A DNA stretch of 36,022 bases from an uncultured Spirochaetales bacterium (lineage in GTDB: Bacteria > Spirochaetota > Spirochaetia > Sphaerochaetales > Sphaerochaetaceae): NCBI GenBank assembly GCA_949285785.1, contig CASEAG010000020.1, positions 1 to 36,022 of the forward strand. Direction: 5' to 3'. Shown here one piece after another: positions 1,233 to 21,931 of this stretch (within the stretch, counting starts at the first letter, position 1; every line of letters starts with the position of its first letter). The translations under genes were made by a program, and so were the position numbers. The notes beneath the pieces were generated by a model, which saw nothing but the letters and a program-made list of their open reading frames with translations, ran no database searches and was not told where the DNA came from.

Positions 1233-1237
1233 ATCTC

Positions 1238-2575
1238 TCAGACCCTCTTGTAGCTCTTCATCGCGTTCCTGATGTACTCGCAAAGCGAGGACACGTTCAC
1301 CCTCTCCTGGGTCATGCCGTCGCGCTCACGCACAGTGACGGTCTGGTCCTGGAGAGTCTGGTAGTCGACGGTCACGCAGTACGGCGTGCCGATCTCGTCC
1401 ATCCTCCTGTAGCGGCGGCCGATGGCTCCGCTCTGGTCGTAGAACGTGACGAAGTCCTCCCTGAGGTCGTGCTCCAGCTTCGAGGCGTATTCGCCCAGTC
1501 CGTCCTTCTTGACCAGGGGAAGCACCGCGACCTTGACAGGTGCGATCGCCGGATGGAAATGCAGGACAGTCCTGACATCGCCTTCGGGTGTCTGCTCCTC
1601 GTCATAGGCGTCGCTGAGGGCCATGAGGACGTTCCTCGTGAGACCTGCGGAGGTCTCGACGACGTACGGGATGTAGCGCTCGTTCGTCTCGGGGTCGAGG
1701 TACGTAAGGTCCTTGCCGCTGAACTTCTGATGCTGCGTCAGGTCGTAATCGGTCCTGGAGTGCACGCCCTCGAGCTCCTGCCAGCCCATCGGGAAGAGGA
1801 ACTGGATGTCGTAGGCATCCTTCGCGTAGAAGGCCAGCTCGTCCGGTCCATGCTGATGCCACCTCAGGTGCTCCGGATGGATGCCCATCTTGTGGTAGAA
1901 GGCCATCCTCTGCTCTCTCCAGTACGGGAACCACTCGTCCTCTGTGCCGGGCTTGCAGAAGAACTGCATCTCCATCTGCTCGAACTCGCAGGAGCGGAAG
2001 ATGAAGTTCTTCGTGGTGATCTCGTTCCTGAAGGACTTGCCGACCTGTGCGATGCCGAAGGGGATCTTCACGCGGGACGACTGCAGGACGTTCTTGAAGT
2101 CGACGTAGATGCCCTGTGCCGTCTCGGGTCTGAGGTAGACGACGGAGGCGCTGTCCTTGTTGGCGCCGATGTGCGTCTCGAACATCAGGTTGAAGTTCCT
2201 GGGCTCGGTGAAGCTGTCCCTGTTGCCGCAGACCGGGCATGGGGCGTTCAGATCTATCTGGTCTGCACGGAAGCGGGACTTGCACACCTTGCAGTCGACC
2301 ATGGGATCGGAGAAGTTGGACACGTGCCCGCTGGCCTCCCACACCCTCGGGTGCATGAGGATCGAGGCGTCCAGACCGACGATGTTGTCATGCATCTGGG
2401 TCATCTCCTTCCACCAGAAGTCGCGTATGTTGTTCTTGAGGTCGACGCCGAGCGGACCGTAGTCGTAGGCTCCGTTGAGACCGCCGTAGATCTCCGAAGA
2501 CTGGAAGATGAATCCTCTCCTGCGGCAAAGGGAGATGATCTTGTCCATCGTGACAACCTGCTTTTCCTGTGACAT
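1238..2575 (-). CDS. glyS: Glycyl-tRNA synthetase, single-chain (alpha2) type
   Basis: This class II synthetase charges tRNA-Gly. It is the dimeric single-chain form rather than the split alpha/beta glyQ-glyS form. The 445-residue protein starts MSQEKQVVTMDKIISLCRRR and has the typical N-terminal GAYDYGPLGVDLKNN stretch. A Cys pair (CKVC, about 96-99) and a second pair (CPVC, about 113-116) probably form a zinc insertion. Motif 2 lies around FRNEITTKNFIFRSCEFEQ and motif 3 around ETSAGLTRNVLMAL. The C-terminal anticodon-binding domain begins near HFHPAIAPVKVAVLPL. It starts 1 nt after the gltX stop and ends 5 nt before tyrS. Three adjacent, unrelated aminoacyl-tRNA synthetases in one unit is the only oddity. 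Confidence 0.97.
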   Translation of the reverse strand: MSQEKQVVTMDKIISLCRRRGFIFQSSEIYGGLNGAYDYGPLGVDLKNNIRDFWWKEMTQMHDNIVGLDASILMHPRVWEASGHVSNFSDPMVDCKVCKSRFRADQIDLNAPCPVCGNRDSFTEPRNFNLMFETHIGANKDSASVVYLRPETAQGIYVDFKNVLQSSRVKIPFGIAQVGKSFRNEITTKNFIFRSCEFEQMEMQFFCKPGTEDEWFPYWREQRMAFYHKMGIHPEHLRWHQHGPDELAFYAKDAYDIQFLFPMGWQELEGVHSRTDYDLTQHQKFSGKDLTYLDPETNERYIPYVVETSAGLTRNVLMALSDAYDEEQTPEGDVRTVLHFHPAIAPVKVAVLPLVKKDGLGEYASKLEHDLREDFVTFYDQSGAIGRRYRRMDEIGTPYCVTVDYQTLQDQTVTVRERDGMTQERVNVSSLCEYIRNAMKSYKRV

Positions 2576-4094: not shown

Positions 4095-4123
4095 ATCTTA
4101 ACGAGTATGCCCCTCTTGCTCAA
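4095..4123 (-). promoter_or_regulatory. Candidate promoter of the gltX-glyS-tyrS operon
   Basis: On the minus strand TTGAGC (4118-4123) and TAAGAT (4095-4100) are separated by 17 bp. The -35 overlaps the stop codon of the upstream hydrolase gene. An inverted repeat, AAGATA (4076-4081) and TATCTT (4094-4099), covers the -10 box and the predicted start of transcription and could be an operator or leader hairpin. The call is by eye only. Confidence 0.35.
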
Positions 4124-4947
4124 CCGAGCCGGGAGAGGAACGAGACCGTTTCGTCCAGCGCCCTCCTCTCGCATCCGGGATCGATGTCGTAGAAGACGAA
4201 ATGCGTCGCCCCTTCGATATAGACCACGTGTGCGACGTCGGCGAATCTGGCGCAGGCATCGCCGTCCACGACCGCATCCGAGTGCGAGGCGAGCATGAGC
4301 GTAGGGACCGTAATGTGTTCCATGGCCGCTCTGGCCCGAGTGGACAGCAGCGACATCTGATACAGCTGCGCCGGGTATACATGGCTGTAGTATTCATGCC
4401 CTAGTGCGAGGTCGTCGCAGGGCGCGTTCTCATAATGGAGATGGTAGCGCAGATCCTGGCTCCAGGAAGCCGGGACATCCTTCCGATGCCTGGAAAGCTC
4501 CCTCATCGCATCGCCGTCCAGGGATGGGATCGAGAAGGCAGGCATGGCAAGCACCATGCCGTCGCACCTGTGTCCTGCTTGGGCGATCACGCACAGCAGA
4601 CAGCCCATGGAATGGCCTAAGAGGAAGACACGCTCATAGCGCCTCTCCAGATCCGCCAGGGCATGGTCGACGAGGCCGAGCCAGTCATCGGAGGAAGTGT
4701 TGATGAAGTCCTCTCCGCTGGTCCCCATGCCGGGCAGACGCGGCACAAGACAGTCGAAGCCCGCCTGGTACAGGGCCAGGGCCGGAGATACCAGCTCTCC
4801 GGGGTAGCCGGCATAGCCGTGCACCTGCAGGACGCAGGAGCGTGCACCCTCGTCATGGATACAGGAGAATGACCTTGCGGCGGGGATCACGGGCGCCTTG
4901 TCCGCATACAGGCCTTCATACCAGGAGCCGAACTCCTCGTATCTCAT
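4120..4947 (-). CDS. Alpha/beta hydrolase, esterase or monoacylglycerol-lipase-like
   Basis: This is a 275-residue serine hydrolase of the alpha/beta fold, probably cytoplasmic since no signal peptide is seen. The oxyanion-hole motif VHGYAGYPGE is at about 42-51. The nucleophile elbow GHSMG puts the catalytic Ser at 113. The acid is Asp224 in SHSDAVVD and the base is His249 in GATHFVFYD. The spacing fits the carboxylesterase Est30/monoacylglycerol-lipase type, but the substrate cannot be read from sequence. Its ATG overlaps the stop of the upstream LuxR-type gene as ATGA (4944-4947), so translation of the two is very likely coupled. This suggests that the hydrolase works in whatever response the membrane regulator controls. 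It is the last gene of the unit running from 8410. Confidence 0.9.
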   Translation of the reverse strand: MRYEEFGSWYEGLYADKAPVIPAARSFSCIHDEGARSCVLQVHGYAGYPGELVSPALALYQAGFDCLVPRLPGMGTSGEDFINTSSDDWLGLVDHALADLERRYERVFLLGHSMGCLLCVIAQAGHRCDGMVLAMPAFSIPSLDGDAMRELSRHRKDVPASWSQDLRYHLHYENAPCDDLALGHEYYSHVYPAQLYQMSLLSTRARAAMEHITVPTLMLASHSDAVVDGDACARFADVAHVVYIEGATHFVFYDIDPGCERRALDETVSFLSRLG

Positions 4948-5843
4948 TGCCAGATCCCCTTGTGTATGAGATTCAGCAGGTCGATGCGGCTACGCACCCC
5001 GGTCTTGCCGAAGATGTTCGCGATATGGTTGTTCACCGTGTTGACGCTCAGCGACAGAGCGGCGGCGATCTCCTTGTTCGTCAGGCCCTGCCCCACCAGG
5101 TCTATGACCTCAGCCTCGCGGTCGGTTATGTGATAGACGGACAGGTCCACCTTCTGTACAGGAGGCTGCCTGTCGGCATCCCTGTCGTGGATCATGCGGG
5201 AGATTCCGAGGAAGAGGAAGACGAGCAACACTATCGAATAGGCCAGGAAGAATACCTGTGTGGATATCGCCCTTATGAACGGGATGAAGAGGCCGGCCAG
5301 TATCACGGGCATCATCGACAGAACCACGATGAACGTAGTCAGGACGAGTATCCTGATGTCCCTGGATTCGATCCCCTTCATGTTCTTGAACATCACGATC
5401 ACGCTGAAGAGGACCGTGAAGAGGCAAAGGCAGAAAGACAGGCGTCCGAACACCGGATGCGGACTCACGGTGCCGGCTATCGAGAATCCTGCGAACAGCG
5501 CGCTTATCAGGGGGAATATCGTCTTGTATGGATTGCGCCAGGGATGGCCTATGATCCAGGTCGTGTAGTATGGCACGAAGCTGATCAGGAAGGCCCCGTC
5601 GGCTATGACGAGTCCTGTCCAGACGTGGCCGAGGACACGGTAGACGCCCTGGGTGAACGACAGGGCGGACCAGGAATCCAGTATCTGGAAGAACACCAGG
5701 GCCAGGCTGGTCGCCGCGAAGACGATCAGAGCCGTGGCCCTTCCATGGTGGGACAGCCTCCTGTATACGATCGACAGGACCAGGTCCATGCTCAGCATAC
5801 AGAAGGCAAGAAGACCGAGCAGCAGGGATATGGATGCTTCCAT
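4944..5843 (-). CDS. Membrane-integral LuxR-family transcription regulator
   Basis: The 299-residue protein has seven predicted membrane helices in its first 215 residues (about 5-26, 36-54, 73-92, 109-126, 133-153, 164-188 and 195-214). A short charged linker follows, then a LuxR/FixJ-type helix-turn-helix at about 238-295. The HTH is unmistakable: ITDREAEVIDLVGQGLTNKE, then the recognition-helix region SVNTVNNHIANIF. It is therefore probably a one-component regulator that senses something in or across the membrane and binds DNA from there. No phosphoacceptor receiver domain is present. It lies 3 nt after the RloB-like gene and overlaps the hydrolase gene by 4 nt. The ligand and target promoter are unknown; control of its own operon is the simplest guess. 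Confidence 0.93.
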   Translation of the reverse strand: MEASISLLLGLLAFCMLSMDLVLSIVYRRLSHHGRATALIVFAATSLALVFFQILDSWSALSFTQGVYRVLGHVWTGLVIADGAFLISFVPYYTTWIIGHPWRNPYKTIFPLISALFAGFSIAGTVSPHPVFGRLSFCLCLFTVLFSVIVMFKNMKGIESRDIRILVLTTFIVVLSMMPVILAGLFIPFIRAISTQVFFLAYSIVLLVFLFLGISRMIHDRDADRQPPVQKVDLSVYHITDREAEVIDLVGQGLTNKEIAAALSLSVNTVNNHIANIFGKTGVRSRIDLLNLIHKGIWQ

Positions 5844-5846
5844 GCC

Positions 5847-6476
5847 CTACTTGAACACCTTGGTGTTGTGCGACATGTCCGCCTGTCCGCAGACCTCGAC
5901 GATGGTCTTGTCCAGCTGAGGCATCGATGTGGCCATCTCGCCTGTCGCCTGGATCGCGATCCTGTTGTAGTCGCGGGCGTTCTGGTCGGCCACGGAGTGG
6001 CGTGGGAACAGCTTCATGTGCAGGTTCAGTCCGTCCGTGAGCAGGTACTCCTCATTCCAGCGGAAGCCCTCGATGGCCTTCTGGAGCTGTGGCTCGAAGG
6101 AGGCGGCATCGGCGATGAACCCCTGCGGCTTGCCAAGGTGAAGATAGAGCCAGAGGAGGAATGACGGGTTGAACCAGCACAGGCTGATCCTCTTGCCCTG
6201 GCATGCCTCCTGTGCCTCGCGGACATCCTCGATGGTAGCACCCACGTCGTCCAGTCCGAACAGGGCGTAAGCCACATCGTATCTGTTGCGGTTCTTCTCT
6301 CTGCTGGTGAACTGGATCAGGCGTCTGAGGTCCTTTGCGCCGGAGTTCACGACCGTGAGATTGCCATAGCGGCAGTCCTTCCTCATCTGAGAGAAGAAGA
6401 GGGCTTCGGTCTCGGTAGCCGTCACGAGCAGCAGCGTACGTCTGGTCTCGGTACTTTTCTTCTTGCGCTTATCCAT
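5847..6476 (-). CDS. RloB-like Toprim-fold protein with eroded catalytic residues
   Basis: The 209-residue protein matches the general pattern of the RloB family, the partner of RloA-type ATPases in putative defence loci. It has an N-terminal strand LLLVTATETEALFF, a central YALFGLDDVG, and WFNPSFLLWLYLHLG at about 101-115. By my recollection of the family, the usual N-terminal EGxxTE is here TATETE (19-24), the FDRDD acidic pair is FGLDD (73-77), and the NPxFExW glutamate is Leu at 107. Several residues expected for metal binding and nuclease activity therefore appear to be lost, although the fold-defining NP..F..W frame remains. The gene starts within the stop of the RloA-like gene (TGATG, one shared base), so the pair is translationally coupled. 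The family call is moderately sure; catalytic loss needs an alignment. Confidence 0.8.
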   Translation of the reverse strand: MDKRKKKSTETRRTLLLVTATETEALFFSQMRKDCRYGNLTVVNSGAKDLRRLIQFTSREKNRNRYDVAYALFGLDDVGATIEDVREAQEACQGKRISLCWFNPSFLLWLYLHLGKPQGFIADAASFEPQLQKAIEGFRWNEEYLLTDGLNLHMKLFPRHSVADQNARDYNRIAIQATGEMATSMPQLDKTIVEVCGQADMSHNTKVFK

Positions 6477-7717
6477 CAGTCTGCCTCCTTCTCATCGTTG
6501 ACAAAGTAGAATTCGCTGGTGATCGGAAGAGCTCCGTAGGCACCCTGCAGATACTTCTCGCGGGTGGCCGCCTTGCCACGGGAGGCCTTGAAGTCGGCAA
6601 GGGAGAAGTAGACCGTGCTTGACTCGTGGTCCTTCTGGGCGAACCACACCCCATCCCGTCTCAGGAGGCCCTCCTTGAGCAGCGAGGGGTTGCAGTCGAC
6701 GACCAGCATCTGGCTGTCCTTGTTGCAGGCCTCGAAGATCTCGACGATGTGGCACAGGACATCCGGATGCAGCAGCATTCCGAAGTCGTCCACGACCAGC
6801 GTCTTGTGGCTGGTGAAGCATTCGAAGAACGCGACGGCAAGACTCGTGAGCCTTCTGAGCGAGAGCGATTCGAGGGTGAACAGATTGGAGTATCCATCGG
6901 CCTTCTTGTCGTTGACGTACACGTGGGTGAAGACGACCTTGCCGTCCTCCCTGACGCCGACCCTTCTGATGTCCGTGATGTCGACGGCCCAGAAGAAGTT
7001 GGACAGCTGCTCCTTCCAGCTCGGGTGCTCGGTGAGCATCCTTGCGATGTAGGTCTCGGTCGCGCTGGAGACACCCATGGGAAGGATGTGGAGGCTGTCG
7101 GTGAACCACCTGTAGAGCATCGAGCAGGTCTCTCCGCCCTTTCTGGCCGCCATGCCGAGGAAGCTTGCCGTATCGGCGATTCTGCCTGCAAGGCGCTTCT
7201 TCTCGCCGCGGTACATCTTGCCGTAGCGGTAGGCGTAGACGTTCTCGTCCTCGATGTAGCGACGCTCGAACATCAGCTTCTTCGAGTTGTTGATGATGTG
7301 GTACAGGCTCTCCTCCCAGATCCTGTCCTTGTTGGCCACGAAGCGGTAGCGGGCGATCACCGTCGGGTTCTCGTCGCTTCCATCCCCCTTCTCCAGCAGC
7401 ACCTCGATCTCGATCTGCGCCGGGGTCGCCTTGTCGACACCGTATGCGAATACGGTTCCGGCCAGGGCGCCGGAGAGCGGATTCTCGTTCTCGTCAGGGC
7501 TTGTCACGACCCTGTTGAGGACTTCCAGGGCACGGACGAAAGAGCTCTTTCCGGCTCCGTTCGGTCCGATTATCGCACTGGTCTTGATCGCCTTCAGCTT
7601 GTCCGTGATCCTGACGACCTTGCTTTCGCTCAGGCGGCTGTCCTTCAGCGCCTCGAAGCTGATCCTCTGTGGAGACTTCACGGACTTGAAGTTCGCAATG
7701 GTCATGTTGAGCAGCAT
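6476..7717 (-). CDS. RloA-like AAA/ABC-type ATPase with degenerate signature motif
   Basis: The 413-residue protein has an ABC/SMC-style ATPase N-terminus, MLLNMTIANFKSVKSPQRIS, and an intact Walker A GPNGAGKS (51-58). The C-terminal half ends in the RloA-type pattern LLRRDGVWFAQKDH...REKYLQGAYGALPI (351-399). Three ATP-hydrolysis motifs look abnormal. The S(D)GT-type signature is ESLSLRR (283-289), Walker B reads LVVDDFGMLLHP with Asp instead of the catalytic Glu (D311), and the usual TTH/STH switch is VDCNP (340-344). It may bind ATP but hydrolyse it poorly. A strong Shine-Dalgarno (AGGAGGTA, 7721-7728) precedes the ATG. It shares one base with the RloB-like gene and follows the PHP-phosphatase gene by 42 bp. 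Known relatives pair an ABC-type ATPase with a Toprim effector, as in RloAB and PARIS. Confidence 0.88.
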   Translation of the reverse strand: MLLNMTIANFKSVKSPQRISFEALKDSRLSESKVVRITDKLKAIKTSAIIGPNGAGKSSFVRALEVLNRVVTSPDENENPLSGALAGTVFAYGVDKATPAQIEIEVLLEKGDGSDENPTVIARYRFVANKDRIWEESLYHIINNSKKLMFERRYIEDENVYAYRYGKMYRGEKKRLAGRIADTASFLGMAARKGGETCSMLYRWFTDSLHILPMGVSSATETYIARMLTEHPSWKEQLSNFFWAVDITDIRRVGVREDGKVVFTHVYVNDKKADGYSNLFTLESLSLRRLTSLAVAFFECFTSHKTLVVDDFGMLLHPDVLCHIVEIFEACNKDSQMLVVDCNPSLLKEGLLRRDGVWFAQKDHESSTVYFSLADFKASRGKAATREKYLQGAYGALPITSEFYFVNDEKEAD

Positions 7718-7759
7718 AGCTACCTCCTGTCTCTCATGGGCACACCACCCATATTGTCT

Positions 7760-8410
7760 TCAGTCCAGATTGTCCTGGACGAAAGCGTTCATCCTCCTGG
7801 CAACGTACGGGTACTGTCCCAGAACCTCGTACAATGCCAGCGGCAGACTCTCGTCTCCATGGTTGTCCGTGGCGACGAAGTCCACCAGTCCGCTCCTCAG
7901 CCAGGTGCGGCCCATGTCGGTCCGGGCCCCTCTGGCGTTCACCTGCACCAGGCATCCATACTCCTCATGCAGCTGATCGAACAGCTCGCAGTGCGGAGAC
8001 AGGAAGCGGTAGCGCTCCACGTGGGCGAGTATCACGCGATATCCCCGCTCCGTGATCCTCCGGACCGTCTCGAGATACCTCTGGGGAGCGAACGAGGTAT
8101 CCGTCTCGCACAGCACGTGCGTCCCGAAGTGCGCAATGAAGTCCAGCTTCTCCTGGTCCCTGACGTAGAACTCGCATCCCAGAGTGCAGGAGATCCCGAA
8201 CTTCGCGGCCTTCGCCGCCGCCCACTCGAAGGTGGACGCGATCCTTTCGCGGCGCGTGTCCACGTATGGATCGTCGATATGAGGCGAGAACACTATGCGA
8301 TCAATTCCCGCCTCCCTGTATTTGCCCATCATCGCCGAGAAGCGGCGCCTCTTCAGCATGCTGTCGTCGACCTTCGGCAGCAGATGGGTGTGGATGTCGA
8401 TGATCGTCAT
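7760..8410 (-). CDS. PHP-domain phosphatase, CpsB/YwqE tyrosine-phosphatase type
   Basis: This 216-residue metal-dependent phosphoesterase belongs to the polymerase-and-histidinol-phosphatase (PHP) fold. The metal ligands are easy to see: His7 and His9 in IDIHTHLLPKVDDS, His44 in FSPHIDDPYVDT, Glu80 in GCEFYV, His130 in ILAHVERYRF, and Asp182/His184 in ATDNHGD. The HTHLLPKVDDS opening is characteristic of the CpsB/YwqE protein-tyrosine phosphatases that act on bacterial tyrosine kinases controlling capsule export. No kinase, wzx or glycosyltransferase gene lies nearby. Here it heads the unit with the Rlo-like pair and the LuxR regulator, so the usual capsule role is not supported by context. 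No clear Shine-Dalgarno precedes the ATG. Family call good, substrate unknown. Confidence 0.88.
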   Translation of the reverse strand: MTIIDIHTHLLPKVDDSMLKRRRFSAMMGKYREAGIDRIVFSPHIDDPYVDTRRERIASTFEWAAAKAAKFGISCTLGCEFYVRDQEKLDFIAHFGTHVLCETDTSFAPQRYLETVRRITERGYRVILAHVERYRFLSPHCELFDQLHEEYGCLVQVNARGARTDMGRTWLRSGLVDFVATDNHGDESLPLALYEVLGQYPYVARRMNAFVQDNLD

Positions 8411-8599: not shown

Positions 8600-8929
8600 T
8601 TAACAAATATTAAGTTCAGGCACGTCCTGGGCATCGACACCGCACAGGACGAGCCTCGTTCCAGGCTCCTGTGCGAGGTGGTCGTCGATCCATCCAAGGA
8701 CCTCGCTTCGGTCACAGGAGGCAAGCACGATGTCGAATCCGATGACCACGATCGCCTGGAAGTCCCCGCTCGAAACATACCTCTTGAGAGACTCGAACAG
8801 CCGCCTCCCGTCCGTCTCCCGGAAGCGTTTCACACCTGCCATGGGCACCGGTGCCTGTCCGCATGCCAGATACCCTGTCTTCAGCCCCTGCACCAGAGCG
8901 CTCCAGTCCCCTTTCGTCGCCACTATCAT
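8600..8929 (-). CDS. Small protein of unknown function
   Basis: This 109-residue protein starts MIVATKGDWSALVQGLKTGY. I do not recognise a family. It is a mixed alpha/beta sequence with a hydrophobic strand-like segment AIVVIGFDIVLASC (about 59-72) and another, TRLVLCGVDAQD, near the end. No signal peptide or membrane helix is evident. Its start lies 3 nt after the stop of the upstream lipoprotein gene, and the terminator at 8508-8540 follows it, so it is the last gene of the argH-pdxA-lipoprotein unit. Coding status rests on that tight packing and on codon use like its neighbours; no function is proposed. Confidence 0.65.
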   Translation of the reverse strand: MIVATKGDWSALVQGLKTGYLACGQAPVPMAGVKRFRETDGRRLFESLKRYVSSGDFQAIVVIGFDIVLASCDRSEVLGWIDDHLAQEPGTRLVLCGVDAQDVPELNIC

Positions 8930-8932
8930 GCC

Positions 8933-10063
8933 TCAATCCCCCATCACCATCGTGAAGACGCTCGCCGATCCGTCCACATAGGAGACGGGAGAGCCCTCTC
9001 CGCGGATCTGCTCCAGCGCCTCCTGGTTGCGTCTTTCAAGAGTCCTCAGCCTGTCGAGCAGTGTCTGGACATCCTCATCCACATAGGACGCGGACACGTC
9101 CTCCAGAATTCCGATAGCCCCATCGATGTCGCCCCCTACGGCGCACAGCAGCGCATAGTTGTATCCGGAAGGCAGGTGCCCATCCTCCATCCATACCCTC
9201 TCGAAGATGTCCCTGGCGGCGGAGACCGCTCCATCCCGGACAAGGTCGTATGCCTTCTCGACGCCTTTGAGCTTCGGACGGTTGTCCATGAGGTCGATCG
9301 AGACCTGGCGACGCTGAGGCGCCAGCTGCGAGGCGGCGATGGATGTGATGTCGTCGAGCATCGCGTCGAAATAGCGCATCACCCGTGGGCCGGAGAAGAA
9401 CCGCGAGGCCACCTCGCTGACGAACTCCCTCTTGTCGGAGAAGCTCTTCGTGGCGTAGATGGTCATGGTGGAGGCATCGATGACCGTGTAGGAATACACT
9501 ATCGAGACAGTCTGCGTCAGATAGTACCTGTAGCGCACCAGGCGCAGCGGATCGCCGTCCCTGTCCACCCTCGAATGGTCGTAGTAGTATTCCCGCTCGC
9601 TGGACACGTATTCGTTGACATCCATCGAGACGATGCGGGGTACGATGAAGGCATCGATGCCGAGCTCCTGCACCTCGTCGTCTATCTGCATTCCCGCCCT
9701 GCTCCTCGACACGAGACGGTCGCTCACCGTCGGCGAGACGATCTGGAAGAAGCCGGTCGAGGCAAGTGCCGAGGCAAGCTTTGCGGTCGCCTCTTTTGCA
9801 ACATCATCGGCCAGAGCCCTGTCATATGAACTCGGGATGCGGCTGTAGACCGCCGCCATGGAGTCCACCGCCCTGACGTAGCGTCCCGGCCCATGGAAGC
9901 CCTCGAACGGAACCGTAGACGTCAGTGCGACGGTGCGGTGGCGACCCATGTCGATCTCGCTCGGGTTCATGTATGACACGCTCACGCTGGTGGCGCAGGA
10001 TGAGAGGACGAGCAGCGATGCGATGACGAGCATCATGACCACAACAGGAAGCCGCGACCTCAT
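8933..10063 (-). CDS. Lipoprotein of unknown function with a C-terminal repeat-like helical region
   Basis: The preferred start is the ATG at 10063, giving 376 residues, because it shares one base with the pdxA-like stop (TGATG) and leads straight into a lipoprotein signal: MRSRLPVVVMMLVIASLLVL then SSCATS, with a good lipobox (LSSC). An in-frame ATG further upstream (10105) would only add 14 polar residues inside the pdxA-like gene. The mature part has an alpha/beta N-terminal domain (IDMGRHRTVALTSTVPFEG; LGIDAFIVPRIVSMDV) resembling CsgG/LpoB-like or DUF6340-type lipoproteins. A helical tail (SAARDIFERVWMEDG, YNYALLCAVGGDIDGAIGIL) looks like one or two TPR-like repeats. It is probably anchored in the envelope facing the periplasm. 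The role is unknown and the family link is tentative. Confidence 0.85.
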   Translation of the reverse strand: MRSRLPVVVMMLVIASLLVLSSCATSVSVSYMNPSEIDMGRHRTVALTSTVPFEGFHGPGRYVRAVDSMAAVYSRIPSSYDRALADDVAKEATAKLASALASTGFFQIVSPTVSDRLVSRSRAGMQIDDEVQELGIDAFIVPRIVSMDVNEYVSSEREYYYDHSRVDRDGDPLRLVRYRYYLTQTVSIVYSYTVIDASTMTIYATKSFSDKREFVSEVASRFFSGPRVMRYFDAMLDDITSIAASQLAPQRRQVSIDLMDNRPKLKGVEKAYDLVRDGAVSAARDIFERVWMEDGHLPSGYNYALLCAVGGDIDGAIGILEDVSASYVDEDVQTLLDRLRTLERRNQEALEQIRGEGSPVSYVDGSASVFTMVMGD

Positions 10064-11079
10064 CAGCTGACGACTCCCCTTATTATGTAGTCGCGGGCGA
10101 CGCACAGCGCCTGGACCAGGGACACGGGGACCATGACTCCTCGGCCCGCCTTCTCAAGTCTGGCACCTCTGTCGACCCTCACCGCCAGGAACGGCCAACC
10201 CCAGTTGACCGTCACAGTATGCTCGTAGTCGAGGCTCATGGCCGCGATGTGCGCCTGGTCGTGGAAGAGGGCGATCACGGCACGGTAGCAGCCCTTGGCC
10301 GCACGGTGCATCAAATGGTCGGCGCCGACAGGGCCGACTATGTCGATGCCCAGCCCTCTCGCCTTCTCTATCGCCGGGATTATGACCTCGCGCTCCTCCT
10401 GCCCCCACTCGAGCGAGTCGGCATGGTGAGGGTTCACGCTGGCTATCGCAAGCGGCTTGTCCATTTCGAACACGGACTGCTCCTGTGTAAGGGAGTCGAC
10501 ACGGATGATCGTGTCCAGGATCTTCTCGAAGGTGATCTCCCCGAGTGCCTCCCTGAGCGGGATGTGATGGGTATGGCTGAAGATCTTGACCCCGCCCACG
10601 TCCAGCATCGTCACGCCTCTGCCGCTGGATGTCAGCTCCCCTATCATCGTCTCATAGCGTGTATCCTTTATGCCGGCCATCGCAAGCGAGCGTGCATCGA
10701 GAGGCACGGTGACCAGCGCCGAGGCATATGAGTTGTTTATCAGAGACACGGCCTTGGCCGTCGTGGTGAAGCAGGCCTTGCCACACTGGGCATCCTGCCT
10801 GCCGTATGAGAAAGCGTCCATGTCTAGGCAAGGAATGTCGTAGAAGATGGTGCGCTCTCCGCTCAGCATCGCCTTCTCGAGCTGGCTGTCGTCGCTGACG
10901 AACGAGGTGAACGGAAGCGGTATGCGAAGGTCGCGGGAGAGCTTCATGAACAGCGCCCTGTCACCGACGACGATGATGCTGCCGAACTGGAGTCTCCTGT
11001 CGCAGGAGAGCGCCTTGACGATGATCTCGGGTCCGATGCCTGCCGGCTCTCCCATTGGAATCGCGATATATCTGTTCAT
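10063..11079 (-). CDS. PdxA-family dehydrogenase, divergent at the substrate site
   Basis: The 338-residue protein has the fold signatures of PdxA (4-hydroxythreonine-4-phosphate dehydrogenase): MGEPAGIGPE (9-18) and three metal-site histidine regions, HTHHIPLR (His172), NPHH (His218) and FHDQ (His273). However, the substrate-binding GHTE found in true PdxA is here TRYE (140-143), and NPHxGExG is NPHHADSLEWG. The stretch after FHDQ reads AHIAAMSLDYEHTVTVNWGW instead of the usual GLxxLKxxGFxxxVNxTxGLP. It may therefore act on a different phosphorylated acid, like the PdxA2/DenD enzymes of four-carbon acid-sugar catabolism. It lies 45 bp after argH and overlaps the lipoprotein gene by one base. 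No symbol is given because PdxA function is in doubt. Confidence 0.88.
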   Translation of the reverse strand: MNRYIAIPMGEPAGIGPEIIVKALSCDRRLQFGSIIVVGDRALFMKLSRDLRIPLPFTSFVSDDSQLEKAMLSGERTIFYDIPCLDMDAFSYGRQDAQCGKACFTTTAKAVSLINNSYASALVTVPLDARSLAMAGIKDTRYETMIGELTSSGRGVTMLDVGGVKIFSHTHHIPLREALGEITFEKILDTIIRVDSLTQEQSVFEMDKPLAIASVNPHHADSLEWGQEEREVIIPAIEKARGLGIDIVGPVGADHLMHRAAKGCYRAVIALFHDQAHIAAMSLDYEHTVTVNWGWPFLAVRVDRGARLEKAGRGVMVPVSLVQALCVARDYIIRGVVS

Positions 11080-13545: not shown

Positions 13546-13863
13546 TCAGCGGACGATGTGCTTGTCGAGGACGGCCTTCATCACACCGTGGGACATCGCC
13601 CCTGTCACGTCGTCGACCAGTCTTCCATCTTCGAACACCAGTATCCTGGGCACGGAGTAGACGCTGTACTGATGGGCGAGCTCCACATCCTGTGCAATGT
13701 CGCTCCGGCAGAATGTGCACACATCTCCATACTCCTCCTCGAGACTTGTCAGCGAGTTCTCCGCCAGGACGCTGTTGACGTCCATCGCCGAGGCGAACAG
13801 GAGCACAAGGTACCGCTTCTGCCTCATCTTCTGGTCAAGTGTCTTGCGATCTGTATTCTCCAT
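13546..13863 (-). CDS. Thioredoxin-fold protein lacking the active-site CxxC
   Basis: This 105-residue protein follows the thioredoxin plan from about residue 17: YLVLLFASAMDVNSVLAENS, then SLEEEYGDVCTFCRSDIAQD, then VYSVPRILVFEDGRLVDDVT with the cis-proline. Where thioredoxins have WCGPC after the first strand there is AMDVN (26-30), so the redox pair is missing from its normal place. A Cys pair does occur at 49 and 52 (CTFC), but in the strand that normally precedes the partner-recognition region. It is unlikely to be a normal disulfide reductase; a chaperone-like or regulatory role is possible. There is no signal peptide, so it is probably cytoplasmic. It stands after ssb behind a GC-rich hairpin. 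The Shine-Dalgarno before the ATG is weak. Confidence 0.78.
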   Translation of the reverse strand: MENTDRKTLDQKMRQKRYLVLLFASAMDVNSVLAENSLTSLEEEYGDVCTFCRSDIAQDVELAHQYSVYSVPRILVFEDGRLVDDVTGAMSHGVMKAVLDKHIVR

Positions 13864-13885
13864 GCCTCAAACATAGCAGGCCAAG

Positions 13886-13916
13886 GCGGCCCGCTCAAGA
13901 GCATGAGACGGGCCGC
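13886..13916 (-). terminator. GC-rich hairpin between ssb and the thioredoxin-like gene
   Basis: A perfect 8-bp stem, GCGGCCCG (13886-13893) and CGGGCCGC (13909-13916), has a 15-nt loop. It lies 20 nt downstream of the ssb stop on the minus strand. No T run follows, so it may be a weak terminator or a leader structure for the next gene. Confidence 0.4.
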
Positions 13917-13935
13917 GCATGGCGATCGGGATGCG

Positions 13936-14403
13936 TCAGTACTCGTAGATGACGACGGGCTCCGCCAGTGCGCCGGCGTTCTCGTCGCCTCCCTCCGCGT
14001 TCAGCGTGATGTCCTCGCCATCCTCTGCAGGGCCCCTGCCCTCCGCATCCGCTTCGCCGCGTCTGCGGCGGAACTCGATGTGCTGGGCGACTATGCTCGG
14101 TCTGGAGAAGTCCTTCAGCCCGTCGCGGGACCTGTACAGCGAGACCTTGAGACGTCCGACGACGCGTACGGTCGTGCCCTTTGGTATGAGCTCCATCACC
14201 TTGCGCCCAAGGGCGCCCCAGGCGAGCACGTCCATGAACATCGTGTCGTCCTTCCACTGGCCGTCAGGAGTGTCCTGGCTGCGGTAATAGCGATGACTTG
14301 CGATGCGCAGCACCACAAGCTGCGATCCCGTCTGCGAGGTGCTCTTGACCTCGGGATCGCTGACGACGATACCCTCAAGCAGTATCGAATTGAGATGATT
14401 CAT
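13936..14403 (-). CDS. ssb: Single-stranded DNA-binding protein with atypical C-terminal tip
   Basis: This 155-residue OB-fold protein coats single-stranded DNA in replication and repair. The start MNHLNSILLEGIVVSDPEVK at 14403 is set by AGGAGG about 8 nt upstream; a longer frame to 14433 ignores that site. Residues 1-110 match SSB: NSILLEGIVVSDPEV, DTMFMDVLAWGALGRKV, GTTVRVVGRLKV and PSIVAQHIEF. An acidic disordered tail follows (EADAEGRGPAEDGEDITLNA). The usual tip, Asp/Glu-rich ending in IPF, is replaced by EPVVIYEY. The tip normally docks repair and replication partners, so this ending may be a lineage form with the same role (acidic plus aromatic). It is divergent from pyrH. Confidence 0.92.
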   Translation of the reverse strand: MNHLNSILLEGIVVSDPEVKSTSQTGSQLVVLRIASHRYYRSQDTPDGQWKDDTMFMDVLAWGALGRKVMELIPKGTTVRVVGRLKVSLYRSRDGLKDFSRPSIVAQHIEFRRRRGEADAEGRGPAEDGEDITLNAEGGDENAGALAEPVVIYEY

Positions 14404-14490
14404 CGAGATATCCTCCTGAATCCATCTACACAAGAATGCGTCGTTCCGGCTAAAATGGCGAGAAAGGGAACAATCCCGTGTGAGGTGGAT

Positions 14491-15186
14491 ATGACAAGCA
14501 GGACCACTGTGCTGTCGCTAGGCGGCTCGATCATCGCTCCGGACAAGGTCGACACGGCCTTTCTCTCGGCATTCCATGAGGCGGTAGGCGCCTATCTCGA
14601 CGAAGACAGGACACGACGGCTCATACTCGTATGCGGAGGAGGAGCCCCCGCCCGCGTCTACCAGAGCGCCCTGCGTACGGTGCGCCCCGACAGCAGCGCG
14701 GAGAGCCAGGACTGGCTCGGCATCAGGGCCACCCACCTCAACGGTGCGCTGGTGCGCGCCATATTCAGCGACTATGTGGAGGACGGGCTGGTCACGGACC
14801 CAAGCGCCGATGAGATAGCGTTCTCCGGGCAGGTCCTGGTCGCGGCGGGCTGGAAGCCCGGCTTCTCCACCGACACGGATGCAGTGCATCTCGCCCTGCG
14901 CTTCGGTGCGACGACCGTCGTGAACCTGTCAAACATAGCAAAGGTCTACACGGACGACCCGAGGACGAACCCGGATGCCAGACCCCTGGATTCCATCAGC
15001 TGGGACGACTTCCAGAAGATGGTCGGCACCGAGTGGACTCCAGGGCGGAACACTCCATTCGACCCCATCGCCAGCGCACTCGCGAAGGAGCATGGAATGC
15101 GCGTGATCTGCGCCGAGGGACGCAACATCGCCAACACCATGGCGATACTGCGCGGGCAGGACTACGTAGGCACCACGATAGGCTGA
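14491..15186 (+). CDS. pyrH: UMP kinase, archaeal-type
   Basis: This amino-acid-kinase-fold enzyme converts UMP to UDP using ATP. The 231-residue protein starts MTSRTTVLSLGGSIIAPDKV, with TGAGGTGG as Shine-Dalgarno a few bases upstream. Motifs are LSLGGSII (phosphate loop), LILVCGGGAPARVYQ, GIRATHLNGALVRAI, and TTVVNLSNIAKVYTDDPRTN for the nucleotide site, then PGRNTPFDPIAS. The short form, with the LGGS and TNVDGVYDxDP-like segments arranged this way, is typical of the archaeal-type enzyme also carried by some spirochaetes, rather than of the usual hexameric E. coli type. Its last 25 nt overlap the end of the convergent radical SAM gene. A TAAAAT box at 14451-14456 may be its -10, but no good -35 was seen. 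Confidence 0.92.
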   Translation: MTSRTTVLSLGGSIIAPDKVDTAFLSAFHEAVGAYLDEDRTRRLILVCGGGAPARVYQSALRTVRPDSSAESQDWLGIRATHLNGALVRAIFSDYVEDGLVTDPSADEIAFSGQVLVAAGWKPGFSTDTDAVHLALRFGATTVVNLSNIAKVYTDDPRTNPDARPLDSISWDDFQKMVGTEWTPGRNTPFDPIASALAKEHGMRVICAEGRNIANTMAILRGQDYVGTTIG

Positions 15187-16115: not shown

Positions 16116-16156
16116 TCGATTGACCCTTTGGCAGGATTGTAGCAAGCTTGTCAGAC

Positions 16157-17290
16157 ATGGGCAAATGGATCGACTGGCTGAAAGGACACGGGAAGGATGA
16201 GGTGCAGGAGCGCTTCATCCTCTCGATCGATGGCGGCGGAATAAGAGGGCTTGTCCCCGCCACCGTCATCCAGGCCCTGTCGTCGATGCTGAAGGAGATG
16301 GGCGACGAACGGCCGCTGTACTCTCATTTCGACCTCGTCGCAGGCACCAGCACCGGTGCCCTGATCGCCCTTGCTCTGGTGATGGACGACATCGGAGTGC
16401 AGAAGGACGAAGGGCCGGGCATTCCGGTATACAGGACGGTCAGGAAAGGCCTGTTCTCGTCGCGTAGGATTCTGGATGGCTACATCGCACGCTCGGCGGA
16501 TCCGCAATGCTTCCAGAGGCTCTACCTGGACAACGCGAAGAGAATCTTCAGCTCGAGGGGACGTTTCCTCGGAGCGGTCTTCAGCGACAAGTACGACCCG
16601 GCCAGTCTGGAGGACTTCCTCAGGGCGAGCTATCGGGACACGAGGCTGTCTGATGCGCTGGTTCCCGTGATGGTCGTCAGCTACGACAGTCTTTCGGGAA
16701 GGGGCGAGGTGCTTGCCAGCTTCAACGAGTGGAAGGACATGTATACACGCGATGCGGCCCGGGCGTCCAGCGCCGCACCCCTCTACTTCCCTCCTTTCCA
16801 GACGAAGACCCCGGACGGCAGGGACGCATTCCTGCTGGATGGAGGCATCATGGCCAACGACCCCGCCCTCCTGGCATACGTCCAGGCACGAAGGCTCTAC
16901 CCCGGCTGCAGACGCTTCCACATCCTCTCTCTGTCGACGGCACGCGGCGTCTACACGTTCAACCCGAAGGACAGTCTGACGGGAATGGCCGGCTGGGCCG
17001 AGCCCGTCATGAAGATGTACCCGAATGCACAGATGGACCTGGTCGGCCAGACGCTCTCCTCACTTGACGATGTGGACTATGTGCGCATCGCAGGACAGCT
17101 CACGAAGGAGAAGATCAGACTCGACGACACCAGGCCCGAGAGCATGCAGATTCTGATAGACGGGGCGAAGAGACTGGTCGAGGAGAACGGAAGGGTCCTC
17201 AGGGACTTCGCGGGGCTGATGGCCTCTCATGACACGTCCGATGCCGTCAGACTCTCGCGGAACCTGCTTCCCGGTCCAGCATGTCCCTGA
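16157..17290 (+). CDS. Patatin-like phospholipase
   Basis: This 377-residue acyl hydrolase uses a Ser-Asp dyad. The oxyanion loop DGGGIRG (25-31), nucleophile elbow GTSTG (Ser65) and the DGG motif with Asp228 (context LLDGGIMANDP) are all intact, so it should be active on phospholipid or other acyl esters. There is no signal peptide, so it is probably cytoplasmic or membrane-associated. The start is the ATG at 16157; a TTG at 16148 with an AGGA about 11 nt upstream is an alternative, adding three residues. Some patatins are effectors of CBASS defence (CapV), but no cyclase or other CBASS gene is adjacent, so a housekeeping lipase is at least as likely. Its last 44 nt overlap the convergent pyridoxal-kinase gene. 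Confidence 0.92.
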   Translation: MGKWIDWLKGHGKDEVQERFILSIDGGGIRGLVPATVIQALSSMLKEMGDERPLYSHFDLVAGTSTGALIALALVMDDIGVQKDEGPGIPVYRTVRKGLFSSRRILDGYIARSADPQCFQRLYLDNAKRIFSSRGRFLGAVFSDKYDPASLEDFLRASYRDTRLSDALVPVMVVSYDSLSGRGEVLASFNEWKDMYTRDAARASSAAPLYFPPFQTKTPDGRDAFLLDGGIMANDPALLAYVQARRLYPGCRRFHILSLSTARGVYTFNPKDSLTGMAGWAEPVMKMYPNAQMDLVGQTLSSLDDVDYVRIAGQLTKEKIRLDDTRPESMQILIDGAKRLVEENGRVLRDFAGLMASHDTSDAVRLSRNLLPGPACP

Positions 17291-18089
17291 TGGCGTAGGA
17301 GACGATGACCCCCTCCCTTCTCTCCCGTCCCTGGGCGAAGGTGAGATTCACCGCATGGCTTGCGATGCGGGTGGCCTTCATGACGCACACGAAGAACGGC
17401 TCGCCGTTGAGCATGAGGGCGCATAGCAGCGAAGTGAAAAGATCTCCGGATCCGGGGTAGGACATCCCGATCCGCTCGAAGGGGAACGTGCGCACCTGGC
17501 CTCCATCGCATGCCATGTTGACAGTCATGCCCCCTTCGAGAGTCATGCTGGTGACCACCACGAGGGCTCCGCACATGTCATGAAGCGTTCTGACGAGCGC
17601 CTCCGCCTCTTCGAGTCCCACCTCCCCCTTCATCGCGCATCCGGCAAGAAGGCAGGCCTCGGTCTGGTTGGGAGTGATCAGCGTGCTGCCACGTGTCAGA
17701 GACCTCATCGCCTCTATGTGTTCATGCGTGATGTTCTGGTACATGCGCCCGTCATCCCCCATCACGGGATCGGTCACCACGAGGGCGTCACTGGACAGGA
17801 GCTCCCTTCTGGCCCTCTTCACGAGCTCGACCTGCCTGTGGTCTGCAAGATAGCCTGAGTACAGGCAGTCGAAGACCAGTCCATATCCCAGCCACGCATC
17901 CATGATCCGGGTGCACTCGTCGTCCAGCGGTCGGGAATAGAGACTGTCGAAGCCGTCGGACTGGCTCGAGAGTATCGCACTGGGCAGGAACGACGTGTCT
18001 ATGCCCGCGGCATAAAGCACCGGCAGGACTACGTTCAGGCTGCTCGCAGCATGACATGACAGGTCGTGGATCGCCAATGCGCTCTTCAT
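17247..18089 (-). CDS. pdxY: Pyridoxal/pyridoxamine kinase
   Basis: This ribokinase-fold enzyme phosphorylates vitamin B6 vitamers to PLP or its relatives. The 280-residue protein starts MKSALAIHDLSCHAASSLNV and shows the B6-kinase signatures SGYLADHRQV, VTDPVMGDDGRMY, LITPNQTEACLLAG and YPGSGDLFTSLL. The last holds the catalytic Asp, with GSGD in place of the commoner GTGD. It supplies PLP, which the threonine aldolase and PatB-like enzymes encoded further right would need. There is no strong Shine-Dalgarno, and the promoter at 18097-18125 puts the transcript start almost at the ATG. It overlaps patatin by 44 nt at its 3' end. Whether PdxY or PdxK is the better name cannot be decided. Confidence 0.9.
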   Translation of the reverse strand: MKSALAIHDLSCHAASSLNVVLPVLYAAGIDTSFLPSAILSSQSDGFDSLYSRPLDDECTRIMDAWLGYGLVFDCLYSGYLADHRQVELVKRARRELLSSDALVVTDPVMGDDGRMYQNITHEHIEAMRSLTRGSTLITPNQTEACLLAGCAMKGEVGLEEAEALVRTLHDMCGALVVVTSMTLEGGMTVNMACDGGQVRTFPFERIGMSYPGSGDLFTSLLCALMLNGEPFFVCVMKATRIASHAVNLTFAQGRERREGVIVSYAIRDMLDREAGSARV

Positions 18090-18167: not shown

Positions 18168-19964
18168 ATGAGATACATCGATGAAAGGACCGGACTCGAG
18201 GTGTGCGACAGCGCCCTCGATCCTCTTTGCGGCATCAGGTGCGACAGTCCGTCCGTCGCCAGGGCACTCGACAGCTACATCCTCTCCGCCTCGGGCTGGA
18301 GGAACATCTTCGTCTCGAGCAAGGACGAGGAGGACCCGTCCTGCACAGTCGGGGACGAGGACATGGTCATCACCGCGCACATCGCCAAGGTGCTGTACGA
18401 CTCGCTGGGCATGAAGACACCATCCATTCTCCTGGCAGTGGACGCCCGGCCCACGGGCAGGATTCTCGCATACATCACGATGAGGGTGCTTTGCGCACTC
18501 GGTGCGAAGGTCTCCTACCTGTTCATATCCGCCGCGCCGGAGACGATGGCCTACTCGCACTGCGGCTTCGACGCCTTCTGCTACATCTCGGCAAGCCACA
18601 ACCCGATCGGCCACAACGGCTTCAAGTTCGGCTCGGAGGGCGGCGTCTACGAGCGGAGCATCTCCGATGCCATGGCGACGAGGCTGAGGGAATCGGTCGG
18701 CAGGGACGATGTCGTGGATGTCGCCAGATCGCTGAGCGCCGTCGCCTGCATCGACGACATCGACGCGGTCATGGCGCAGTACCCCGGGCAGAAGGCGATG
18801 GCACTGGAGCACTACCGTAGATTCGTGCTTGACACCGCCGGTGTGGACGAGAGCTTCCATGCATGCTGCGGCATCGTGGGGGAGCTCAACGGCTCGGCCA
18901 GGAGCCTGTCCATCGACAAGGACTTCCTCAAGTCCATCGGATGCAGGACGCATTTCGTCAACGACACTCCGGGCAGGGTCGTGCATGCGATCGTGCCTGA
19001 GGGGGAGAACCTGATCCCATGCCGTGACGAGCTTGCCAGGTGCCATGCCCAGGATCCTTCCTTCATACTCGGCTACTGTCCCGACAACGACGGCGACAGA
19101 GGCAATTTCGTGTATGTCAGGCAGTCTGATGGACAGTGCGAGATACTCCAGGCACAGGAGGTCTTCGCCCTCGTCGTGGCGATCGAGCTGGCCGACCTGA
19201 GCCGGCGCGGCGTATCGGACCTCGCGGTTGCGGTCAACTGCCCCACAAGCGAGAGGATAGACGCGATCGCATCGGTCTTCGGCGCGAAGGTCTTCCGTGC
19301 AGAGGTCGGAGAGGCGAACGTGGTAAATCTCGCCTCGCAGCTCAGGGAAAGCGGCCATGTGGTCCATGTGCTGGGCGAGGGAAGCAACGGAGGCAACATC
19401 ACCGCCCCGGCGAAGGTACGCGATCCCCTCAACTCCATCATGAGCGTGCTGAAGCTCTTCGCCGATCCCGGTCTCTTCTCCTATGCCGTGGAGAAGTTGA
19501 CAGGCAGACGCCCGGACGCCGAGCCTTCGATCGAGGGTCTGATCGACGCCATGCCGCACTACACCACCACGGGGGCGTTCTCCACCCTTGCGAAGATGCA
19601 CGTGAAGCACACCTGCTGGGCTCGGCTGAAGAATGAATACGAGACGCTTCTTGTCAGGCAGTGGCCCGGAATGCACCTCGAGGACGAGGGCATCGTCTCA
19701 TACGAAGTGCATCAGACAGAGGGGACGAAGGAGGTCGTCGGACTCGGCGAGGCATTCCGCTCCCCTGCCGCGAAGGGAGGACTCAAGGTCGTCTTCCTCC
19801 AGAACGACGGTACCCATGCAGGATACATGTGGCTGCGCCCGTCAGGCACCGAGAGCGTGCTCAGGGTTCTGGTTGACCTGAAAGGGGACAGGCAGGCGCT
19901 GCACGACAGACTGCTGTCCTGGCAGCGCTCGCTGATCGAGGAGGCGGATTCGGCCCTAGATTGA
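18168..19964 (+). CDS. Phosphohexomutase (phosphoglucomutase/phosphomannomutase)
   Basis: This 598-residue alpha-D-phosphohexomutase interconverts sugar 1- and 6-phosphates. All four active-site segments are present: the phosphoserine loop SASHNPIGHNGFKF (Ser143), the metal loop CPDNDGDRGN (Asp306, Asp308, Asp310), the sugar-specificity loop GEGSNGGN (403-410) and the phosphate-binding loop RPSGTE (557-562). Its length is nearer to the long PGM/PMM2-type enzymes than to the roughly 450-residue PMM/PGM, so glucose-1,6-bisphosphate-linked PGM or PMM are both possible. With the convergent hexokinase gene it would connect free hexose to sugar-1-phosphates for glycan synthesis, which suits the nucleotidyltransferase at 33173. 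The start ATG at 18168 follows an extended -10 box closely. It overlaps hexokinase by 9 nt tail to tail. Confidence 0.93.
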   Translation: MRYIDERTGLEVCDSALDPLCGIRCDSPSVARALDSYILSASGWRNIFVSSKDEEDPSCTVGDEDMVITAHIAKVLYDSLGMKTPSILLAVDARPTGRILAYITMRVLCALGAKVSYLFISAAPETMAYSHCGFDAFCYISASHNPIGHNGFKFGSEGGVYERSISDAMATRLRESVGRDDVVDVARSLSAVACIDDIDAVMAQYPGQKAMALEHYRRFVLDTAGVDESFHACCGIVGELNGSARSLSIDKDFLKSIGCRTHFVNDTPGRVVHAIVPEGENLIPCRDELARCHAQDPSFILGYCPDNDGDRGNFVYVRQSDGQCEILQAQEVFALVVAIELADLSRRGVSDLAVAVNCPTSERIDAIASVFGAKVFRAEVGEANVVNLASQLRESGHVVHVLGEGSNGGNITAPAKVRDPLNSIMSVLKLFADPGLFSYAVEKLTGRRPDAEPSIEGLIDAMPHYTTTGAFSTLAKMHVKHTCWARLKNEYETLLVRQWPGMHLEDEGIVSYEVHQTEGTKEVVGLGEAFRSPAAKGGLKVVFLQNDGTHAGYMWLRPSGTESVLRVLVDLKGDRQALHDRLLSWQRSLIEEADSALD

Positions 19965-21251: not shown

Positions 21252-21262
21252 GAATCCACCTC

Positions 21263-21931
21263 CTAGACGATGCTCATGTGCATCGGTGCGATTTCGATCA
21301 GAAAATTGTTGCATGTCATCTTTTCGGTCGTCAAGACGATTCCATCGTCCTCTCCGTCCACAGACAGAAGGCCCTCGAAGGCGAGCGGCGTGGGGTAGTC
21401 GCGGCCGGACACCAGCATGGATATGTATACGTCGAAGTCCACGCTCGCCCAGTTCCTCATGATGTAGAGGTCGAAGATCGTGGAGAACAGGCCGTCGTCC
21501 AGCATCGCCCCTTGGAAGACAAGGGTGCCGTCCAGCACCGCGTCCCCCTTCTCCAGCTGGAGCGTTCGTACGGAATCAAGGGCGATCCGGGTGATCGGTG
21601 AAAGCCGGGACGAGGCCGTGTAGAGCATGCGCTGGAGGAACGACCTTCCCCTGTCGGGAGGGCTCTCGAGCTGGGAGGCAAGCGAAGCTACATCGCATCT
21701 GAGGTAGCTGAGTATGGCGACGGGAGCGGAACTGTCCTGACCCATCTGCTCGACCGCCACCCCCTCCAGGTCGATCGTCGGTATCGATGTCCTTGCCGCG
21801 AACGTGGAGACGACGGCGGATGCGATGGACTGGAGCGCATTCTGCATCGATGGCACATCAGGTGCATCCGATGCCCAGACGGGGCACAGGACCACAAGCG
21901 ATGCGATCAGGCAGGAGACGAGGCGTCTCAT
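21263..21931 (-). CDS. Exported protein of unknown function
   Basis: This 222-residue protein has a signal peptide, MRRLVSCLIASLVVLCPVWA, with likely cleavage after WA-SDA. The mature part is predicted soluble in the periplasm. It alternates strand-like segments (APVAILSYLRCDVASLASQL, GDAVLDGTLVFQGAMLDDG, DFDVYISMLVSG) and ends NFLIEIAPMHMSIV. I do not recognise a family. Its ATG overlaps the stop of the upstream transporter gene as ATGA (21928-21931), and its own stop overlaps the hexokinase ribosome site, so it is expressed with both. A role beside the transporter in the envelope is possible but not shown. A Cys at position 7 is in the signal h-region and is not a lipobox. Confidence 0.78.
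   Translation of the reverse strand: MRRLVSCLIASLVVLCPVWASDAPDVPSMQNALQSIASAVVSTFAARTSIPTIDLEGVAVEQMGQDSSAPVAILSYLRCDVASLASQLESPPDRGRSFLQRMLYTASSRLSPITRIALDSVRTLQLEKGDAVLDGTLVFQGAMLDDGLFSTIFDLYIMRNWASVDFDVYISMLVSGRDYPTPLAFEGLLSVDGEDDGIVLTTEKMTCNNFLIEIAPMHMSIV

Follow-up and report, generated by a model that had tools for sequence, protein, structure and literature searches.

Gene Content of the Locus

The window analyzed here is a stretch of 36,022 nucleotides from an uncultured Spirochaetales bacterium (GenBank assembly GCA_949285785.1, contig CASEAG010000020.1), whose genome comprises 2.05 Mb in 40 contigs. On the reverse strand, positions 10063-11079 hold an intact ORF with an ATG start that encodes a PdxA-like protein of 338 amino acids with a rebuilt substrate pocket, likely a pseudoenzyme judging from its family match, residue comparison, tree and dN/dS. 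The product matches PF04166 with an E-value of 8.7e-57 (193.1 bits against a gathering cut-off of 27), which places it in the family. It falls far below the cut-offs of the narrower models, scoring 189.3 bits against TIGR00557, the NCBIfam PdxA equivalog (cut-off 290.35), and 141.3 bits against NF002891, the NCBIfam model for D-threonate-4-P dehydrogenase (cut-off 583). Two canonical proteins encoded at the same locus, L055 and L072, exceed the TIGR00557 cut-off with 297.2 and 310.2 bits. The solved structures closest in sequence are 2HI1 (E 1.8e-37) and 6E85 (E 1.6e-35), both PdxA2-type. An AlphaFold2 model of the window protein, built from an eight-row alignment, reached a pLDDT of 57.8 and fell below 50 over most of the pocket; it supports no claim.

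Immediately downstream, positions 8933-10063 (reverse strand) encode a lipoprotein of 376 amino acids whose ATG overlaps the stop codon of the PdxA-like gene (TGATG). A lipobox is recognizable by eye, and a weak TPR_19 match together with an AlphaFold2 model (pLDDT 85.6) suggests a CsgG-like β part joined to TPR-like helices. Foldseek matched this model to CsgG, FlgT and PelC with a best E-value of 1.4e-5 and low TM-scores (0.2-0.3 of the query), and one canonical relative scores 20.1 against the Pfam cut-off of 20.8 for CsgG; “CsgG-like” is therefore used here as a hint at the predicted fold. The lipoprotein is present in 134 of the 139 genomes of the family that were searched (an order-level search yielded the same 139), including 75 of 75 of high quality. 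Some of its matches (e.g., in G121, G089, G026, G087, and G123) show one inner stop, reflecting either a broken gene or a match that overruns.

Gene neighborhoods were read at 40 loci besides the window (12 from the window genus, hereafter g1, 15 from its sister genus, g10, and 13 canonical), and the lipoprotein gene lies downstream of the PdxA-like gene in all 40. In five canonical loci (L051, L072-L075) an ABC-transporter-like gene lies in the roughly 1.4 to 1.9 kb that separate the two. The first-pass annotation had described the PdxA-like gene as sandwiched between argH and an envelope lipoprotein. Both do flank it, but argH adjoins the gene in only one of the 40 relatives and an association with it was rejected; the conserved neighbors are the lipoprotein gene and a degenerate BtuR gene. 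Further along, most loci carry CpsB/CapC, an AAA ATPase, an RloB-like gene, a LuxR-type regulator, an alpha/beta hydrolase and two genes resembling tRNA synthetases (assigned by eye as glyS and gltX). The RloB-like gene and AAA ATPase (5847-7717, reverse strand) resemble a defense pair, yet most of the 40 loci conserve them at this position.

The degenerate gene occupies positions 8600-8929 on the reverse strand and encodes a “pseudo-BtuR” of 109 amino acids, a relative of the C-terminal half of BtuR/CobO without a P-loop. Canonical genera carry BtuR/CobO as the next gene after that for the lipoprotein, and all 11 of their proteins that were aligned have an intact P-loop. In g1 and in seven of 15 long-form g10 loci the same slot holds a protein of 105-125 amino acids without the P-loop half. 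The slot gene of the window lacks the P-loop half and has no Pfam match up to an E-value of 5, PF02572 of BtuR/CobO included. Its relationship is apparent from profile-profile alignment (hhalign) of 19 slot proteins against 11 BtuR proteins, which gave a probability of 98.4 and an E-value of 6.6e-15 over 62 columns. PF02572 scores above cut-off in 46 of the 139 genomes; among the 16 g1 genomes none does so, and g10 yields one weak match below cut-off (G049). Taken with those of the PdxA-like gene below, these comparisons show degeneration of two metabolic enzymes from one gene row in a single lineage, with both reading frames preserved. An obligate pairing of the two is unsupported, since the slot gene is absent at eight of 15 long-form g10 loci. 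At one g10 locus (L148 in G029, 244-1791, reverse strand), the lipoprotein and pseudo-BtuR form a single frame of 515 amino acids, which is either a real fusion or a stop codon lost to sequencing error.

Several other features of the window deserve mention. Positions 16148-17290 (forward strand) encode a patatin-like phospholipase that scores 150.2 bits against the 200 of a CBASS lipase model, with no CBASS partner noted beside it, and 34323-35429 (reverse strand) encode a TnpB/IS605 OrfB-type protein with a Cas12f1-like domain. Positions 19956-21314 (reverse strand) encode a PF00349/PF03727 hexokinase, a type known chiefly in eukaryotes. The ORF at 13558-15186 (forward strand) has as its C-terminal part a UMP kinase, for which the archaeal model is the nearest (154.2 against 158.05 bits), and its long N-terminal stretch may reflect an over-extended start.

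Same-Locus Relatives and Phylogeny

Genes of the same clade were found in 75 of the 139 genomes: 13 in g1, 27 in g10 and 35 in other genera, the last referred to as canonical copies. Three of the 16 g1 genomes lack the PdxA-like gene (G003, G004, and G006). A contig scan, whose reach is limited to close relatives, identified seven loci at 66-87% identity, and the canonical same-locus proteins are 40-43% identical to the window protein. In a maximum-likelihood tree of 71 rows (41 same-locus copies and 30 other family members), the same-locus copies form one clade with support of 100/100, and common descent at a conserved position is evident from the sequences. The g1 (100/99) and g10 (100/100) copies are sisters (100/100) nested among the canonical copies (97/95). 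The stems leading to g1+g10 (0.92) and to g10 (1.45) are long, and the exact placement among the canonical genera is therefore less sure than the nesting itself.

Escherichia coli PdxA falls outside this separate clade (100/100). The genome of the window encodes a second, canonical PdxA2-like paralogue with a full active site on contig C28 (G000:C28:121067-122008; L001 and L034), in a genome without a DUF1537 kinase. This paralogue also lies outside the clade, on the side of the PdxA2-type and other family members.

In vitamin B6 metabolism, pdxJ has been used as the signature of the DXP-dependent route, and PdxA2 has been treated as an organic-acid catabolism paralogue that is nevertheless able to catalyze the PdxA reaction (PMC9997740). 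Searches for PdxJ returned no match in the genome of the window or in any of the 139 genomes of the family, and PdxS was likewise without a match in the window's own genome. The DUF1537 kinase (PF07005) is present in 55 of the 139 genomes, with no match in this one. The first-pass annotation had pointed to a pyridoxal kinase elsewhere in the window, and a match to that family is indeed found at 17325-17858. It had argued from this that de novo B6 synthesis need not be the role of the PdxA-like gene, and had proposed phylogeny and a search for pdxJ as checks. Both agree with it: the window protein lies outside the true PdxA clade and the genome contains neither pdxJ nor pdxS. The combination that would have refuted the annotation, membership of that clade together with pdxJ, was not found.

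Active-Site Residues of the Window Protein

Residues were numbered according to E. coli PdxA (L035), to which the window protein was aligned. From the E. coli entry, we take H166, H211 and H266 to be the metal ligands and H136, T137, K274, N283 and R292 to be substrate residues. The metal triad is intact in the window protein, as H172 (codon 10564-10566), H218 (10426-10428) and H273 (10261-10263, all on the reverse strand), so that the first-pass statement that the metal-binding histidines remain holds. D247, D267 and the GEPAGIGPE loop are also retained. The substrate site is different: H136, T137, K274, N283, R292 and H297 correspond to Y, E, M, T, A and R, and on our assumed assignment the substrate residues T137, K274, N283 and R292 of PdxA are thus all replaced. 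The codon for M281, which replaces K274, lies at 10237-10239 (reverse strand).

The GHTE motif had been reported as replaced by TRYE. The replacement is real, but the reading was one residue off; the alignment places R141-Y142-E143-T144 (codons 10648-10659, reverse strand) opposite G135-H136-T137-E138 of E. coli PdxA. The divergence that had been noted after NPHH and FHDQ is borne out by the alignment, in which NPHAGEGGHM of the E. coli protein becomes NPHHADSLEW and a second segment, of 34 residues in E. coli PdxA, is replaced by FHDQAHIAAMSLDYEHTVTVNWGWPFLAVRVDRG.

How much weight can these substitutions bear? In PdxA the active site is situated at the dimer interface, and wild-type H136 hydrogen-bonds the substrate; in E. 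coli PdxA, H136N raises pyridoxine production and E214N allows it (PMC10471632). H136Y and E214D of the window protein are therefore weak evidence, the more so as tyrosine occupies position 136 in 22 of the 35 canonical copies, and H136 was dropped from the argument. Because the metal triad, D247, D267 and the GEPAGIGPE loop are all retained, the window copy could still be active. That its site was rebuilt beyond chance is indicated by K274M, N283T and H297R, which are fixed in 13 of 13 genus copies, while K274 is kept in 35 of 35 canonical copies and in 30 of 30 other family members.

It is highly improbable, in our estimation, that the protein is an ordinary PdxA or PdxA2-type enzyme acting on a phosphorylated four-carbon acid, its substitutions being tolerated drift. 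The PF04166 match, the metal triad and the full pocket of the canonical same-locus relatives would suit such an enzyme. They have to be set against pocket residues that are not only replaced but fixed, scores far below both equivalog cut-offs, the lack of PdxJ across the 139 genomes and of a DUF1537 kinase in this one, and the separate canonical paralogue on contig C28.

Stepwise Loss of the Active Site

A census of the 75 copies places these substitutions in a series. All 35 canonical copies retain the triad, T137, K274, R292 and H297, position 136 being tyrosine in the 22 already mentioned. In g1, K274M, N283T and H297R each occur in 13 of 13 copies, and the triad is intact in seven. The six remaining g1 copies carry H211V (one), H211I (three), H166Y with H266Y (one) or H166N with H266Y (one), so that the position of H218 of the window protein is V or I in four of 13 genus copies; at least four changes to the triad are required within g1. 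The relative that is 87% identical to the window copy is the one with H211V. In g10 no metal histidine is left in any of the 27 copies: H166R is found in 27 of 27, H211 is never histidine and H266 is alanine or serine in 27 of 27, while R292 is still arginine in 25. As a control, the triad and K274 are retained in all 30 other family members (paralogues, PdxA, PdxA2, and TphB-like proteins). Most of the genomes are draft assemblies, and a substitution seen in a single genome may be an error; H211I recurs in three and the g10 losses in 27.

The protein has also become shorter. In some g10 species it is reduced by about a quarter, to about 262 amino acids. Fourteen further g10 loci lack the long form, and 11 of these hold a remnant of 259-285 amino acids at the same place, with none at the other three. 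The remnants match the g10 profile with E-values of 1e-8 to 5e-15 (one at 1.6e-7) and retain the GLPF motif.

Selection on the Protein

Comparison of the window copy with its nearest relative gives a dN/dS ratio of 0.11 (bootstrap 0.07-0.16). The median ratio is 0.146 in g1, 0.152 in g10 and 0.071 in canonical copies (maxima 0.27, 0.27, and 0.35), values that are to be read as samples, since most pairs are saturated and a usable synonymous distance was available for 10 of 78, 8 of 351 and 41 of 595 pairs, respectively. Constraint is thus strong in both derived groups, though somewhat looser than in the canonical copies. Two measurable pairs of the shrunken form gave 0.05 and 0.12. Over measurable pairs, neighboring genes range from 0.02 to 0.26 and the slot gene from 0.08 to 0.30.

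Conservation of the pocket was compared with that of the remaining protein, using as pocket columns our own choice of loops around the ligands. In canonical copies these columns are strongly conserved (entropy 0.27 against 1.28 elsewhere). They are more conserved than the rest in g1 as well (0.50 against 0.91, p 4e-4), which does not hold for g10 (0.96 against 1.10, p 0.13).

These values bear on the notion that the gene is decaying and owes its retention solely to its translation, which would drive the coupled gene for the lipoprotein. The TGATG overlap, the wider distribution of the lipoprotein (134 genomes, against 75 with the PdxA-like gene) and the existence of shrunken forms all invite it. 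Relaxed decay is disfavored, however, by dN/dS far below 1 in g1, in g10 and in the two pairs of the shrunken form. New residues have also been fixed in the g1 pocket, and in some genomes the lipoprotein is retained although no PdxA-like gene was found upstream of it. We judge this explanation very unlikely.

When the window is compared with G008, the nearest genome, the genes from the alpha/beta hydrolase to CpsB (4120-8410) show synonymous distances of 0.2-0.4. The values rise to 0.9-1.1 for the three genes at 8600-11079 (slot gene, lipoprotein gene and PdxA-like gene). This jump makes a recombination boundary between 8410 and 8600 likely.

A Probable Pseudoenzyme

Pocket, metal site and length have been lost stepwise while the gene has remained intact, which suggests a different and probably non-catalytic job. 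At the level of the clade, the sequence hallmarks of a pseudoenzyme are present, in that catalytic residues have been lost although the clade is conserved and its coding sequences are under purifying selection; the window copy itself has lost only the substrate residues and K274. We consider it reasonably probable that the window protein is a pseudoenzyme whose PdxA fold, together with its newly fixed pocket, serves to bind a ligand or partner instead of carrying out NAD-dependent oxidation. Ligand loss and selection can be read directly from the alignments; inactivity and a binding role for this particular protein are what we infer from them. Besides the metal site kept in the window copy, two observations weigh against a pseudoenzyme: the triad persists in seven of 13 g1 copies, more than expected if it were wholly idle, and the conserved new pocket would suit a new substrate no less than a new ligand.

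The main rival is an active metal- and NAD-dependent dehydrogenase for a non-phosphorylated acid, akin to TphB, with the triad-less members of the genus representing separate losses. This is possible, if rather unlikely. It would account for the triad in the window copy and in seven of 13 g1 copies and for pocket columns conserved with newly fixed residues, and TphB-like references encoded beside dioxygenase genes do lack GHTE, R292 and N283 while keeping the metals. Yet both TphB-like references keep K274, which is lost in 13 of 13 g1 copies; the 87%-identical relative lacks H211, yet the pair has a dN/dS of 0.11; and no dioxygenase or catabolic genes lie beside the PdxA-like gene. The pseudoenzyme and TphB-like readings both speak against the first-pass proposal of action on a new phosphorylated acid, which is not supported: the residues assigned to phosphate and substrate binding (T137, K274, N283 and R292) are replaced, and the metal site has been lost repeatedly in g1 and wholly in g10 under purifying selection.

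On the pseudoenzyme reading, the history of the protein would be as follows. It descends vertically from a canonical PdxA/PdxA2-type dehydrogenase encoded in a conserved row of PdxA, lipoprotein and BtuR. In the common ancestor of g1 and g10, the residues holding the phosphorylated substrate would have been lost, and BtuR would have lost its P-loop half. Selection on catalysis may then have ceased, the metal ligands being lost several times in g1 and completely in g10, part of which shrank the protein to about 262 amino acids; the protein itself stayed under purifying selection. The window copy would represent a middle stage, its pocket replaced by newly fixed residues and its metal site present, though apparently not required in the genus. 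It would probably act through the fold it has kept, by binding a ligand or partner. As a doubtful extension, pseudo-PdxA and pseudo-BtuR might form a non-catalytic module that senses a metabolite or builds a complex serving the CsgG-like lipoprotein encoded between them; the single frame at L148 touches on this idea, as one g10 genome there carries lipoprotein and pseudo-BtuR together.

One syntenic position in one family thus offers a graded series of intact copies (35), copies with a new pocket and optional metal (13), metal-less full-length copies (27) and remnants (11 of 14 loci), through which the conversion of an enzyme into something else becomes testable with existing sequences. Among the open-access titles and abstract openings surveyed for PdxA in connection with pseudoenzymes, Sphaerochaeta or spirochaetes, none describes such a series.

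Comparison with Known Systems

E. coli PdxA (PDB 1PS6/1PS7) shares its Pfam family and metal triad with the window copy, which differs in lying outside the clade of that enzyme, in its replaced substrate residues and in a genome without PdxJ. PdxA2/D-threonate 4-phosphate dehydrogenase (2HI1, 6E85) is closest among solved structures by sequence, but the pocket residues of the window protein are replaced, its NF002891 score is 141.3 of 583 bits and its genome lacks the DUF1537 kinase partner. The terephthalate dihydrodiol dehydrogenase TphB (PDB 4ATY) and TphB-like plasmid proteins have, like the window copy, lost the phosphate-site residues and kept the metals. The TphB-like proteins retain K274 and adjoin ring-hydroxylating dioxygenase genes, whereas the window protein has K274M and no such neighbors.

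Corrinoid adenosyltransferase BtuR/CobO and the gene at 8600-8929 share the same slot and a C-terminal similarity of 62 columns, and differ in the P-loop half and the Pfam match that the slot gene lacks. A further comparison is with the canonical same-locus proteins (e.g., L055 and L072), which occupy the same position upstream of the lipoprotein gene, fall in one clade with the window protein and are 40-43% identical to it. They differ in having kept the triad, K274, T137, R292 and H297 in 35 of 35 copies, and the adjacent BtuR is intact in the 11 aligned.
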